From an uncultured Clostridium sp. (GTDB lineage: Bacteria > Bacillota > Clostridia > Lachnospirales > Anaerotignaceae), in contig CAMXTM010000002.1 in the NCBI GenBank assembly GCA_947246775.1, positions 1 to 21,984 of the forward strand: a DNA stretch of 21,984 nt. The letters run 5' to 3'. The translations under genes were made by a program, and so were the position numbers. Shown here in pieces: positions 2,627-21,762 of this stretch. How positions within the stretch are numbered: position 1 is the first letter of the stretch; every line of letters begins with the position of its first letter. A model generated the notes under the pieces. The model saw only the letters and a list, made by a program, of their open reading frames with translations. It was not told the origin of the DNA and made no database searches.

Positions 2627-4411
2627 TTAATATTTACTATCAAAATGGTTTTCTTCAAAGTTATAATCCATATTTACACTATCATAATCTACTGGTTGGT
2701 ATACCATTGTATCTCCCATGGAGGAAGAGCCACCTTTTAATTTGAATTGTCCTATCAATGACTTCAACATTTCTGATTGACTTGACAACTCTTCACTCGC
2801 TGCTGCACTTTCTTCTGCTGTTGCAGAGTTTGTTTGAATTACTGCTGATATTTGTTCCATACCAAGTGTTACTTGGCTAATTGCAGCCGCTTGGTCATTA
2901 GACGCTTTTGTGATTCTACTAATAATGCTTGCTACTTCTTGTACACCCTCAACAACAGAATTTAATGACTCTGCTGTTTCGTTTGCAATTTCTTCACCAT
3001 TTTTTACCGCTCTAATAGAGTTTTCAATTAACATTGCTGTATTTTTAGATGCTTCCGCACTTCTACCTGCCAATGTTCTTACTTCATCTGCTACTACTGC
3101 AAAACCTTTTCCTGCTGCGCCTGCTCTCGCTGCTTCTACTGCCGCATTTAATGCAAGTATATTTGTCTGGAACGCAATGTCTTCAATCGTTTTAATGATT
3201 TTTCCGATTTCACTAGAAGAACTACTAATATCTTCCATTGCTGACAACATATTTTTCATTCTATCGCTACTTTCAGATGCTTCATTCTCTACCTGTCCTG
3301 TTCTATTATTTGCATCATTCGCATTTTGCGCATTTTGTGATACCTGATTTGATATTTCTGTAATTGTTGCGGAAAGTTCTTCTACAGAACTTGCTTGCTC
3401 TGTTGTTCCTTGTGAAAGCGCTTGCGCTCCACTAGATACCTGTGATGCACCACTTGAAACTTGTACAGAAGATTCTGCTACGGTATGCAAAGTCTCTGAC
3501 ATTCTATCCATAAATTTCAAAATAGAAGCCTGTATGCTCGCAAAGTCTCCCTTAAAGTCACTTCCTGTACTCTCAATTGTAAAGTCTCCATCAGACATTC
3601 TATGCATCGCTGTATCAATTCTTGTAATATAATCCTCTAATATTTCAATACAGCCTCTTACACTATTTGCCATTTCTCCAAATTCATCTTTAGATTGATA
3701 CTCTACTGTTGTATGTATATTTCCTTTTGCCATCTCATTCATTGCATACAATACTTCATTCAATGGTGTTAATATCATACGGCTCAAAGTTGCTACAATT
3801 ACCATAGCAATAATAATTGAAACAATCAAGATTGCAGCAATCAAGCAATAAACTCTTTTTGTTACATTTTCTGAATCTTCCATTTGTTTCTGTATAATAT
3901 CATTTTGTGAATTGACCATCGTATTTAATGTGCTTTCTGCTTCATCTAATGCAGACTGATATTCATTCTTATACATCTCATACGCTTGCGCATTCAATTC
4001 TAGGTCATCTGCTGATGTTAAAGAAGAAATTTGAGCGCCTATACTGGATATTTTACTCACTGAACTCTCTAGTGAGGTAAACATACTAGCATCTACCCTT
4101 GCCGTTTGTTTATACAAAGCAATAATATCACTGATTGCCGCTGTATCTTCTGTTACACTCTGCAATCTCTGTGAAATTAAATTAGGTTCTGTTTCTATGA
4201 TTGCGCTTAACATATCAACTTGCACTTTTTCCAACTGTGTTTGTATTTGTTGAGCATATTTTGTATTTGGTACTGCTCTTTGTGTAAAAATTCCTACTTG
4301 GTCATTTACATGCCCTATACTAATAAAAGCGGTAATACCCAATACAAGCGTTGCAATCACTATGATTGCTAAACTAACAAGCAGTTTCATTCTTACTCTT
4401 AAATTTTTCAT
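2627..4411 (-). CDS. Methyl-accepting chemotaxis protein with four-helix-bundle sensor
   Basis: A 594-residue chemoreceptor. TM1 is at 9-31. The extracellular part (about 35-185) is all-helical without Cache motifs, fitting the 4HB_MCP class. TM2 is at 187-209 and HAMP at about 208-262. The methylation and signalling domain occupies about 300-557 with the tip at 405-445 ([20 protein letters not shown], then [16 protein letters not shown]). A hydrophilic tail of about 35 residues follows and ends in FDSKY. This is not the classic NWETF CheR tether, though an acidic-aromatic tail could serve a similar role. GGAGGA lies 8 bases before the ATG. It differs from the adjacent receptor in sensor type, so the two probably detect different signals. 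Confidence 0.93.
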
Positions 4412-17624: not shown

Positions 17625-18902
17625 ATGAATATCAAACAAAAACTTCTAAACAACGACTGTCTACCTCAGATAAAAATGATTTACAACACAGACGACAGTG
17701 GCGCAAAATTTTACACTGACAGAATCCTTAATTTAATCGAAAATTATGACTCCGTTTTTCATGACTCTCCACAACAGTTACGCATCTTTTCCGCTCCAGG
17801 ACGTACCGAAATTGGCGGAAATCACACAGACCATCAAAGAGGTCATGTATTAGCTGCTGGTGTCAATTTAGACATTGTTGCTGCTGTTAATCAAAACAAC
17901 AGCGATGTCATACAAATCAAAAGCGACGGTTATGACATGATTTCTGTTGATTTAAACCAACTTGACCCTATCGAAACAGAACAAGGTACTACCCTTTCTC
18001 TCGTTAGAGGTATCGCTGCCCATTTTATCAACGCTGGTTACGCCATAAAAGGTTTTAACGCTGTCATGACTTCCAGTGTCCTAAAAGGTTCTGGGCTTTC
18101 TTCTTCTGCTGCTTTTGAAGTCTTAGTTGGCACTATCTTAAACGCCCTATACTGTCAAAACGCAGAGTCTGCTGTTAAAATTGCTCAAATAGGACAATAT
18201 GCAGAAAACGTTTACTTTGGCAAACCTTGCGGTCTAATGGATCAAACTGCTTCCTCTGTTGGCAGTTTTGTTGCGATTGATTTTAAAGATGCACAACACC
18301 CTATTGTAGAACAAATTCCTTTTGATTTCGCTGCAGTTCATCACTCCCTTTGCATTGTTGACACAGGCGGAAATCATGCTGATTTAACCCCAGATTATGC
18401 CGCTATTACTACTGAAATGAAGTCTATCGCTTCTTTCTTTGGCAAAGAGGTTCTCTCTGAAATCTCAGAAGAAGATGTCTACAACAATGTTTTTGAATTA
18501 CGCCAAAAATACGGCGACAGAGCTGTTTTACGTGCAATTCACTTTTTCGCAGACGACAAAAAAGCTGTCCAAGAGGCACAAGCTCTCAAAAACAACGATT
18601 TTGATACTTTCAAAAAACTCATTATTGCCTCAGGTATTTCTTCCTTTACCTGTTTGCAAAATGTTTATTCTAACGCAAACCCTCAAGAACAAGGACTCAG
18701 TCTTGCCTTAGCTCTTTGTCAAAAAATATTGGGCAATCAAGGTGCTTACAGAGTACATGGCGGTGGTTTCGCTGGTACTATCCAAGCCTTTGTTCCTACA
18801 GAATTATTAGACACTTTCCACACAGAAATGGAATCCGCTTTTGGCAAAGGAAAATGTCATGTGCTTTCTATCCGTCCTGTAGGCGGTGTGGAAATTAAAT
18901 AA
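17625..18902 (+). CDS. galK: Galactokinase
   Basis: A 425-residue GHMP-family kinase converting galactose and ATP to galactose-1-phosphate, first step of the Leloir pathway. The galactokinase signature is at 57-72 (APGRTEIGGNHTDHQ), the GHMP phosphate loop GSGLSSSAAF at 155-164, and the catalytic Asp is Asp206 in CGLMDQ. A third motif appears as HGGGFAGTIQAFVP near the C-terminus. It is longer than E. coli GalK (382 residues) through an N-terminal extension of about 30-40 residues, a form common in Clostridia. The ATG at 17625 follows AAAGGAGG by 12 bases, a long spacer. An open frame continues upstream to 17253, but that part is AT-rich leader and promoter DNA. galT and galE are not in the window. 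Confidence 0.94.
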   Translation: MNIKQKLLNNDCLPQIKMIYNTDDSGAKFYTDRILNLIENYDSVFHDSPQQLRIFSAPGRTEIGGNHTDHQRGHVLAAGVNLDIVAAVNQNNSDVIQIKSDGYDMISVDLNQLDPIETEQGTTLSLVRGIAAHFINAGYAIKGFNAVMTSSVLKGSGLSSSAAFEVLVGTILNALYCQNAESAVKIAQIGQYAENVYFGKPCGLMDQTASSVGSFVAIDFKDAQHPIVEQIPFDFAAVHHSLCIVDTGGNHADLTPDYAAITTEMKSIASFFGKEVLSEISEEDVYNNVFELRQKYGDRAVLRAIHFFADDKKAVQEAQALKNNDFDTFKKLIIASGISSFTCLQNVYSNANPQEQGLSLALALCQKILGNQGAYRVHGGGFAGTIQAFVPTELLDTFHTEMESAFGKGKCHVLSIRPVGGVEIK

Positions 18903-18961: not shown

Positions 18962-18974
18962 CTATTTGTCTTAC

Positions 18975-19019
18975 TCTCGTCAGAAAAGACATATCGAATA
19001 TACTCCTTTCTCGTCAGAA
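18975..19019 (+). repeat. Direct repeat of TCTCGTCAGAA
   Basis: The 11-mer TCTCGTCAGAA occurs at 18975-18985 and 19009-19019, 34 bp apart. The second copy lies in the loop of the hairpin at 18996-19031 and the first just before its stem. No gene covers it. Confidence 0.7.
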
Positions 19020-19038
19020 TGAAGTATATTCTTTTTTT
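18996..19038 (+). terminator. Second terminator-like hairpin downstream of galK
   Basis: GAATATACT (18996-19004) pairs perfectly with AGTATATTC (19023-19031), followed by T7. It could be a back-up terminator for galK, 35 bp past the first one, or the end of a short unrecognised RNA. Confidence 0.65.
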
Positions 19039-19242
19039 AATCAAAAATAATAATCACCATCATTTGACCAAAATGATGTATAGATATTACTTTCCTTTAC
19101 TTTATTTAAAAATGTCAACATTTTTTTATTTTCTGTGTACATCATGTTAACATTTTTCTTTTTTGATTGGAACGATTATGAAACACTTCTTTTAGAACGA
19201 CTATATCATCTCAATTCCAATTATTTCGTTCGGTCGTTGTCA
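19039..19242. other. Gene-free region with several inverted repeats
   Basis: No supported ORF. Visible elements are a perfect 8-bp hairpin CATCATTT/AAATGATG (19058-19078), two ATGTYAACAT palindromes (19112-19121 and 19144-19153), and two interleaved complementary pairs between 19166 and 19238 (ATTGGAA with TTCCAAT, AACGAC with GTCGTT). This density of self-complementary DNA suggests regulatory or RNA-coding sequence rather than a decayed gene. Confidence 0.5.
19112..19153. repeat. Pair of ATGTYAACAT palindromes
   Basis: ATGTCAACAT (19112-19121, one central mismatch) and ATGTTAACAT (19144-19153, perfect) lie 32 bp apart, about three helical turns. Both are followed by TTTTT. They look like a repressor site pair, although no gene start lies next to them. 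Confidence 0.6.
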
Positions 19243-19393
19243 CCACACCTAACCAACCTTCCCGACCAGAAAGCAGACTAGGCACAGCCCTTATTTCTCC
19301 CACTCCTAACCAACCTCAGTCCCTGAAACAGATTAGAAACAGTTTTCTTACCACACCTAACCAACCTCATTATCTAAAACGGATTAGGCACAG
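19243..19393 (-). ncRNA. Candidate structured RNA: three tandem hairpins
   Basis: Three imperfect repeats of 43-45 bases (19243-19287, 19300-19342, 19351-19393) share a box CCTAACCAACCT and a box near CAGATTAGGCACAG on the plus strand, with unlike sequence between. On the minus strand each unit begins with CTGTGCCTAA or a variant and ends with TTAGGTGTGG or a variant, and these form a 10-bp stem in all three units. Differences keep pairing: at the fifth pair G-U in two units is U-A in the middle unit, the sixth goes from C-G to U-G, and the tenth from A-U to G-U. Several pairs are G-U only in the minus-strand RNA and would be A-C on plus. Small inner hairpins are possible in each unit. I do not recognise a known family. 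Confidence 0.5.
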
Positions 19394-19406
19394 CTTCATT
19401 ACTTCC

Positions 19407-19415
19407 TTTATATCA
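19407..19415 (-). promoter_or_regulatory. Possible extended -10 promoter upstream of the hairpin array
   Basis: On the minus strand TGATATAAA (19415-19407) has the extended -10 form TGnTATAAT with one mismatch. A start near 19400 would place the first hairpin at the very 5' end of the RNA. No good -35 box is present, so this is tentative. Confidence 0.35.
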
Positions 19416-19428
19416 CACCAAAAGTATC

Positions 19429-19448
19429 AAAAAGTATCACCTTATACT
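19429..19448 (-). terminator. Weak terminator after the DUF4291 gene
   Basis: On the minus strand AGTAT pairs with ATACT around AAGGTG, followed by TTTTT, 11 bp after the DUF4291 stop. The 5-bp stem is weak; readthrough into the hairpin array is likely. Confidence 0.4.
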
Positions 19449-19458
19449 GATTTTATTT

Positions 19459-20046
19459 CTATTTCATATTTAATCTATTCCTAATTCCTCTATCCTTAAC
19501 AGAATATATTTTCTCTACTGGCAACTCTTTTATATTTAATTTTCCTTTTTTCCTTTGCTCATTCCATTTTCTAACCAACGGTGTCAAATCCTCTATACGA
19601 CAAATTCCTACCTTTAAAAAATCCCTTAACGTATCTCCCTTTAATCCAATCTGAATCGCAGCCCGATTTACAGCATTTCCATTTACATTTCTATCAGGAT
19701 CCCACTGACAATACACCTCTGTCTTCTCAAAAGCCTTTTCCCACTGTGTACCTATATAACTAGCAGAATCTGGTGAGGTCAAAACTGCCTTTTGCAACAG
19801 CTCATCAAACTTTGACTGGTACACATCTACAGCTAAAATATATTCTTGATTCTTTTTTGTCCCCCAATTAGAACGGTACATCAACCACAAAAAAGAAGGC
19901 TTTATCCATGTCATACGATTCATATTAAAACTTTCCCCAAATGTTTGCAGCGCAACCGCTTCTTTTGCAATCGTATTACGATGTGCTTGATACACTCGAA
20001 TACACTGTCTATCATATCTCGCAAATATTTCTTTTACATATTCCAC
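19459..20046 (-). CDS. DUF4291 family protein
   Basis: A 195-residue soluble protein of unknown function. It matches the DUF4291 pattern: IRVYQAHRNTIAKEAV near the N-terminus, then MNRMTWIKPSFLWLMYRSNW and the segment KKNQEYILAVDVYQSKFDEL. No signal peptide or membrane segment is present. It begins with GTG at 20046, with AAAGGGG 8 bases upstream; the N-terminal ARYDRQCIRVYQ region would be lost with any later start. It lies downstream of serS beyond a strong terminator, so it probably has its own promoter, which I could not identify with confidence. The C-terminal 40 residues are rich in Lys and Arg. I do not assign a biochemical activity. Confidence 0.8.
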   Translation of the reverse strand: MEYVKEIFARYDRQCIRVYQAHRNTIAKEAVALQTFGESFNMNRMTWIKPSFLWLMYRSNWGTKKNQEYILAVDVYQSKFDELLQKAVLTSPDSASYIGTQWEKAFEKTEVYCQWDPDRNVNGNAVNRAAIQIGLKGDTLRDFLKVGICRIEDLTPLVRKWNEQRKKGKLNIKELPVEKIYSVKDRGIRNRLNMK

Positions 20047-21494: not shown

Positions 21495-21735
21495 AATATT
21501 ATAAAAGCTCTCATCTCTTTTTATTATCCATAAAAAGGGACGAGAGCTATTTTTCCCGTGTTGCCACCCAATTTGTTCATTTTTATAAAACAAACCACTC
21601 AAAACAGCAATAAAGGGCTTACCCTTTTGGCTTTCACCAAACAAGCTCGAAAAGTGGAACATCTCTTTTTTACACCAATTTTCACCAGCCATTGGCTCTC
21701 TGTCGTATTATTACAAGACTTAGCTTTCCTCAAAC
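21495..21735 (-). promoter_or_regulatory. T-box riboswitch of serS (serine specific)
   Basis: The core T-box sequence GGGTGGCAACACGGG is at 21569-21555 on the minus strand. Stem I carries the AGAGAGCC element at 21701-21694 and the likely specifier UCC (Ser) at 21658-21656, followed by ACTTTTCGAGC as in other T-boxes. The terminator stem pairs GAGAGCT at 21542-21548 with AGCTCTC at 21506-21512, followed by TTTTAT. Uncharged tRNA-Ser would pair at the T-box bulge, favour the antiterminator and let serS be transcribed. Confidence 0.93.
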
Positions 21736-21762
21736 GCTTTTTTTGATATTCTTTTTTTTCTA

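Follow-up and report, generated by a model that had tools for sequence, protein, structure and literature searches.

The hairpin array on the minus strand of the window (the whole stretch of 21,984 nucleotides analyzed here) forms a genuine RNA structure, whose stability as sense RNA far exceeds that as antisense RNA or as DNA. The array occupies the leader position in phages and, together with a promoter-like box and phased sites, has been kept in chromosomal copies that lack an ORF. We interpret it as part of a phage module that combines a replication origin with a leader RNA, of which the window carries a solo copy, and we give this interpretation about an even chance. It is based on the arrays found upstream of rep genes, the covariation of the hairpins, the stem formed by the last unit, the phased sites and a precedent in phage lambda. 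By analogy, the role of the array would be a control of the initiator or of the origin, and the solo copies might be decoys like lambda oop-ori or Per.

The window array consists of unit 1 (19393-19351, 43 nt), unit 2 (19342-19300, 43 nt) and unit 3 (19287-19243, 45 nt), separated by linkers of 8 and then 12 nt, as given in the preliminary description. The units scored 59.4, 54.4, and 55.0 bits, respectively, with a covariance model in whose building they had themselves been used. While the three minus-strand units of 43-45 nt do form stems, the outer stem comprises 12 bp, not the 10 bp reported at first. What had been described as a small inner hairpin is an inner stem of 6 pairs in unit 1 and 7 pairs in units 2 and 3, continuous with the outer stem past a pyrimidine-U mismatch. 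The differences noticed earlier between units (G-U to U-A, C-G to U-G, and A-U to G-U) were all seen, and pairing is kept in each. The element is larger than the three hairpins and extends on to about 19030, with galK (plus strand, ending at 18902) on one side and a DUF4291 gene (minus strand, 19459-20046), with serS beyond, on the other; it has no initiator gene and retains the box, the array and three phased sites. A weak longer hairpin lies 3' of the array (19166..19221, minus strand; z of -0.96, 31 of 200 shuffles as good), and the second copy in the same genome has a similar fold (z of -1.38). At the distal end, a small minus-strand hairpin (19059..19077) was found by eye in the window, in this second copy and in the genome G002, its stem sequence not being the same between copies. 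It is followed by an inverted repeat with 16-nt arms of 88% complementarity (18996..19031, minus strand) and by a small hairpin with the same loop sequence (18968..18990, minus strand), both of which have counterparts in G002 by eye, that of the inverted repeat at the equivalent place.

At four phage or prophage loci, 3-5 tandem units are located between the promoter-like box and the start codon of rep, directly upstream of this gene: five units in the prophage of strain ASF356 (L031), five and four in two IMG/VR contigs (L042 and L043, respectively) and three in a MAG contig (L050). These are not four independent witnesses, because L042 and L050 have common unit sequences. Units follow one another in regular steps of 52-58 bp. 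The rep product matches PF14297 Lin1244_N (E 4.6e-22) and phrog_2562, and a DnaB-like gene comes next. Immediately after the last unit stands AGAAAGGA in L031, L042, and L050, and GGAAAGAAGGA in L043, where the likeliest ribosome site is about 6 nt further on; the last hairpin of the phage arrays is close to the ribosome site. The earlier proposal of a 3' UTR element is not supported by this arrangement: where relatives have the gene, the array immediately precedes rep as a 5' leader, and the window copy has an upstream box and a -10-like sequence of its own. In the ASF356 prophage, ORFs run from integrase-like through rep to tail- and lysis-like genes (names given mostly by eye), and its early region also contains a NACHT-domain gene (PF05729, E 1.5e-6; L031:7438-9000), possibly a defence or regulator gene.

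Covariation was examined in a MAFFT alignment of 28 units (27 distinct). A structure of 19 pairs was standard in 93.1% of cells, against a mean of 88.1% in shuffled and 36.6-47.4% in slid structures, a percentage that is high partly by construction since the structure was derived from the very units counted. Changes on both sides were found in 8 of the 19 pairs (5.2 in shuffles) and in 37 cells (14.6 in shuffles), and the covariation score was 0.343 (0.253 in shuffles); these shuffle figures are not probabilities, because shuffles ignore relatedness. Further pair types in this alignment showed no excess over shuffles (130 of 500), and the outer pair of column 5 with column 42 was unpaired in 14 of 27 units. 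The inner stems diverge strongly while pairing stays, e.g., G-UUUCAU with AUGGGG-U and G-UGUUAC with GUAAUA-U. Alignment A1 leaves out the units of L050, which are identical to those of L042, and one ASF356 unit. Homologs with covariation, whose absence would have spoken against the initial suggestion of a structured minus-strand RNA, thus exist, and together with the strand-biased G-U pairs described below they support it. Folded singly and compared with their own shuffles, window units 1-3 gave z of -1.8, -1.9, and -3.3 (11, 12, and 0 of 200 as good). The whole 186-nt stretch folded barely better than its shuffles (z of -1.14, 29 of 200 as good), and in its minimum-energy fold unit 1 is paired with unit 3, in place of three separate hairpins. 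The probability of forming its own stem was 0.83, 0.98, and 0.41 for window units 1-3 and 1.0, 0.96, and 0.93 for the last unit in three whole phage leaders, where most of the upstream units pair with one another.

The rep genes of L031, L042, L043, and L050 each have three ATGTNNRCA sites in the hinge-coding part at exact 21-bp steps. Among 52 viral rep loci (L124-L175), 27 have two or more such sites, and 33 of the 38 spacings between adjacent sites are exactly 21 bp (25 loci, some of them near-duplicates); the reversed control motif gave no pair in these 52 loci. Within coding DNA, a 21-bp phase can result from an Asn-Val heptad. Copies without an ORF keep the phase: spacings are 11 and 21 in the window and in the second copy of the same genome, 11 and 42 in the galK-serS copy of G002 and 21 in the pepF copy of G001, and the pepF copy of G002 has a single site. 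On the minus strand of the window, the sites are ATGTTAACA (19145..19153), ATGTACACA (19134..19142, 11 bp from the former) and ATGTTGACA (19113..19121, 21 bp from the second). No other three sites of the window cluster within 60 bp, and three sites within 43 nt occurred in 0 of 2000 resampled versions of its intergenic region. An AT-rich purine run, AAATAAAGTAAAGGAAAG (19087..19108, minus strand), is similar to the second copy by BLAST and resembles the hinge-coding DNA of rep by eye. The ATGTNNRCA sites are probably origin iterons bound by the initiator, and the 21-bp-phased motif in Lin1244_N rep genes may serve as an origin signature of this phage family. The array RNA is tied to initiator-gene sites that recur with 21-bp phase in many Lin1244_N phages.

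An intact phage of this type has, in order, an activator-like box with a -10, a leader RNA of 3-5 hairpins, a ribosome site, rep encoding a Lin1244_N initiator, with iteron-like sites phased by 21 bp in its hinge-coding DNA, and a DnaB-like helicase gene. A trans-acting factor, either the initiator or a regulator, may bind the repeated hairpins and tune both initiator synthesis and origin use, and the last hairpin may be so placed that a bound factor hinders the ribosome. Because the array adjoins the ribosome site, a control of initiator synthesis in cis is suggested. Since copies without an ORF have the array and the sites and no gene, the array may also matter in trans or in combination with the origin, or these copies may be relics. 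With the array, phage replication control would gain an RNA structure that Rfam release 15 does not contain and that shows strand-biased covariation.

Relatives were sought by BLAST of 98 genomes and by motif scans of genome contigs and viral contigs. The scan of genome contigs gave seven stretches, five of them with arrays; pattern matches L040 and L052 were dropped as having no array by eye, and L051 as a 19.3-bit match inside a 609-codon ORF. After merging duplicates there are nine array loci, four with rep and five without. The solo copies are those of the window (three units), contig C49 of the same genome (three units; positions 3828-4244, 84% identical to window 19032-19438 by BLAST), G002 at galK-serS (one unit), G001 at pepF (six units) and G002 at pepF (two units). 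Such copies occupy two chromosomal places, galK-serS and pepF, in three species of one genus. G001 was taken as NZ_CP097810 (Clostridium sp. MD294 ASF356) and G002 as CAJTDC01. Between galK and serS, the element is absent from G001, which has a single terminator hairpin there, and in G002 the element is flanked by two copies of the terminator hairpin about 453 bp apart, which agree with the empty site of G001 at 61 of 69 (right) and 43 of 49 (left) positions. This duplication suggests mobility. Identity to a known mobile repeat, which the preliminary description had considered, was not found, yet the element is phage-related and appears inserted at this one site. A dispersed repeat of REP or MITE type was rejected, as G000, G001, and G002 have two array loci each. 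Downstream of galK, no element was found in G003 and G004 (G004: 480 nt by eye and none by covariance model), the covariance model gave no match on the G003 loci, and the pepF comparison with G004 covers the sequence up to the contig end, before the 3' side. Over the last 505 nt of pepF, G001 and G002 are identical at 473 positions, and their arrays there differ in unit number and inner stems, which could reflect structure-keeping change or exchange with phages. A tyrosine integrase gene (L009:2115-3482), whose product has a Cro/C1-type HTH domain between the N-terminal and catalytic parts, was noticed 346 nt from the C49 copy.

The phage gene family is widespread, and the array is an addition to it with a narrow distribution. 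With stricter filters applied to the wider searches, the covariance model matched 5 of 58 genomes of the family at E 0.1, three of them of genus g1 and the other two weakly within ORFs of 592 and 597 codons (L085, L086). In the order, 4 of 392 genomes matched at E 0.01, three again of genus g1, and the fourth match (L104) was rejected as coding sequence by eye. A rep relative is present in 13 of the 58 family genomes. As a general feature of Lin1244_N genes the array was rejected, because 22 other rep loci (15 genome loci and L044, L045, and L105-L109) have 0-5 12-mers that recur upstream, compared with 113-157 in three control loci with arrays; L070, with its broken frame, and L071, at a contig end, give no information on this point. 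Among the 52 viral rep loci, the model matches L124, L125, and L167 alone, all three of them already known as array phages, and upstream repeats of L134 (5) and L138 (13, with a 15-nt period) proved on inspection not to be hairpin arrays.

It is possible, if on the unlikely side, that the RNA is or was functional in the phage leader, while the window copy is an inert, decaying leftover of an old prophage. The galK-serS copy of G002 is down to one good unit, the same place in G001 has no element, titration from one chromosomal copy would be weak, and phage exchange could account for the differences between the pepF arrays of G001 and G002. Against decay, pairing survives between the window and C49 copies although 12 pair positions differ: 54 of 57 pairs are intact in C49, where 48.2 (sd 1.4) were expected when the same substitutions were dealt randomly, and 8 of 20000 simulations reached 54. 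In addition, ORF-less copies at two places have retained both the phased sites and the box, and the pepF copy of G001 has six near-identical units without a rep gene.

Under the origin-plus-leader interpretation, the window copy, if transcribed, would supply RNA and iteron-like sites that compete with the corresponding RNA and sites of a related phage during infection or induction. A further step, which we regard as rather doubtful, is that the ORF-less elements are domesticated chromosomal decoys of phage origins, with a phage-responsive promoter, a hairpin-array RNA and phased sites, which capture the initiator or a leader-binding factor of a related phage or else fire lethally from the chromosome. 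Of these two alternatives, titration and lethal firing, the latter is the bolder. If the decoy idea is true, it would be a natural immunity element of RNA plus iterons, about 450 bp long and without a protein. According to the excerpts of PMC3349717, plasmids with a transcribed oop RNA and iterons ITN3-4 silence rep-lambda theta replication. Lambda oop-ori is alike in having a short RNA beside initiator iterons located inside the initiator gene, and in lambda such a fragment silences related phages even though it has no working initiator gene (PMC3349717). Compared with oop-ori, the solo copies keep phased ATGTNNRCA sites without rep, and the box and -10-like sequence are present; a difference from the lambda OOP as excerpted there is that OOP is a single 77-nt antisense RNA opposite O, whereas here there is a sense leader of tandem hairpins with a putative activity. 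The excerpts of PMC6356513 describe Per of PhiSfi21 as a 302-bp noncoding origin, infection-activated and copy-number dependent. Per is alike as a host-carried noncoding stretch of a phage origin of about 300 bp (PMC6356513; see also PMC3445015), and it differs in this dependence on copy number, the array elements here being present in the chromosome once or twice and including an RNA array. If the solo copies act, they would be a natural case of a phage being silenced, with no protein involved, by RNA and an origin that are its own, i.e., nature's version of the artificial oop-ori and Per plasmid experiments. The decoy idea is directly testable in ASF356, presumably a cultured mouse-gut strain, whose complete genome has both an array-bearing prophage and a solo copy.

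The promoter-like box of the window is a perfect tandem of the 10-mer TGATACTTTT (two copies, 19420..19439, minus strand). With up to two mismatches, it occurs in three of the five genomes of the genus (G000, G001, and G002), which are exactly the array carriers, and the reversed control pattern occurs in none of the five. Downstream of the box, the extended -10 suspected earlier can be read from the minus strand as TG-A-TATAAA (19415-19407; TATAAA at 19407..19412, with TG one base upstream); a sigma-70 scan of the array strand finds no -35/-10 pair and misses this -10-like sequence because it requires a -35. The first unit would begin about 7-10 nt from the predicted transcript start, and several stable stems lie at the 5' end, which would suit a leader RNA acting on RNA polymerase or on RNA decay, by put-like antitermination or 5' stabilisation, and not via a repressor or origin. 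We consider this improbable, as no downstream terminator for read-through was mapped, and the array units are repeats, unlike put, which has two unlike hairpins. Sequences like the box were also seen elsewhere. An orphan tail-fibre-like gene pair beside a sufC-like gene has the same box, TGATACTTTTTGATACTTTT, upstream (L010:5259-6464; L110:80-1424; L111); the pair is found in the genome of the window and in G001, with the start of a corresponding gene in G002, and resembles by eye ASF356 prophage genes at L123:9985-10989. In G001, a box-like sequence with one mismatch, which may be due to chance, lies between FtsE-like and flagellin-like genes, named by eye (L116:1501-1520), and the matching stretch of G002 (L114) also has a box-like sequence there.

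Regular 52-58 bp steps, inverted repeats and a nearby replication initiator would also fit an element that acts as DNA, double- or single-stranded, through iterons or cruciforms, and whose RNA fold is incidental. This is very improbable, because G-U pairs are found on one strand. In a hand alignment of 26 units, leaving out the decayed galK unit of G002 and one identical pepF unit of G001, 471 of 488 pair cells are standard (288 Watson-Crick and 183 G-U), 3 are A-C, which would be G-U on the other strand, and 14 are of other types. Fold energies of nine units were -9.2 to -15.6 kcal/mol as sense RNA, whereas the range was 0 to -9.2 for antisense RNA and 0 to -5.0 for DNA. Compared with their own shuffles, single-unit sense folds are only moderately beyond chance (z of -1.2 to -4.9), and several antisense (z to -3.0) and DNA (z to -3.8) folds are beyond chance as well, which qualifies this argument. 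The wobble asymmetry and the DNA folds together disfavor a DNA palindrome or single-stranded hairpin. A G-quadruplex from four GG tracts of the minus strand was set aside, since it would leave the covariation of the 5' arms unexplained.

The array has no match at or above the gathering score in Rfam release 15, in agreement with the earlier remark that no known family could be recognized, and the matches of a permissive scan were all weak, lying either outside the units or below gathering. A search of the literature by titles and abstract openings, with subscription papers outside its scope, found no paper on the hairpin array. A CRISPR array was rejected, as the linkers measure only 8-14 nt and are repeats too (e.g., in L031 and L049), and the units vary. 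A type III toxin-antitoxin RNA was also rejected, the downstream gene being the PF14297 initiator or, in solo copies, absent. STAXI and pan motifs are alike as small tandem RNA structures, STAXI near DNA-handling genes and pan in leaders; according to the excerpts of PMC2864571, STAXI is a pseudoknot and pan has bulged A residues, and neither appeared in Rfam scans of the array. ToxI-type antitoxin RNA and the pseudo-ToxI of PhiTE share tandem RNA repeats of variable number (PMC3475682, excerpts) but differ from the array, which has no adjacent RNase gene, pseudoknot or Rfam match. Least probable of all is an RNA mimic of a type III antitoxin by which the phage evades an RNase-based abortive system: although tandem RNA repeats of about 44 nt occur here in a phage in 1-6 copies and PhiTE expands its pseudo-ToxI repeats (excerpts of PMC3475682), the window and five array loci have no Rfam match at gathering score, the adjoining gene is rep and not an RNase gene, and the units are plain hairpins without pseudoknots. 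Rfam matches elsewhere were rRNA and tRNA in the relatives, and tRNA and a T-box in the window, the latter being a leader upstream of serS (RF00230, 105.1 bits; 21533-21743, minus strand).
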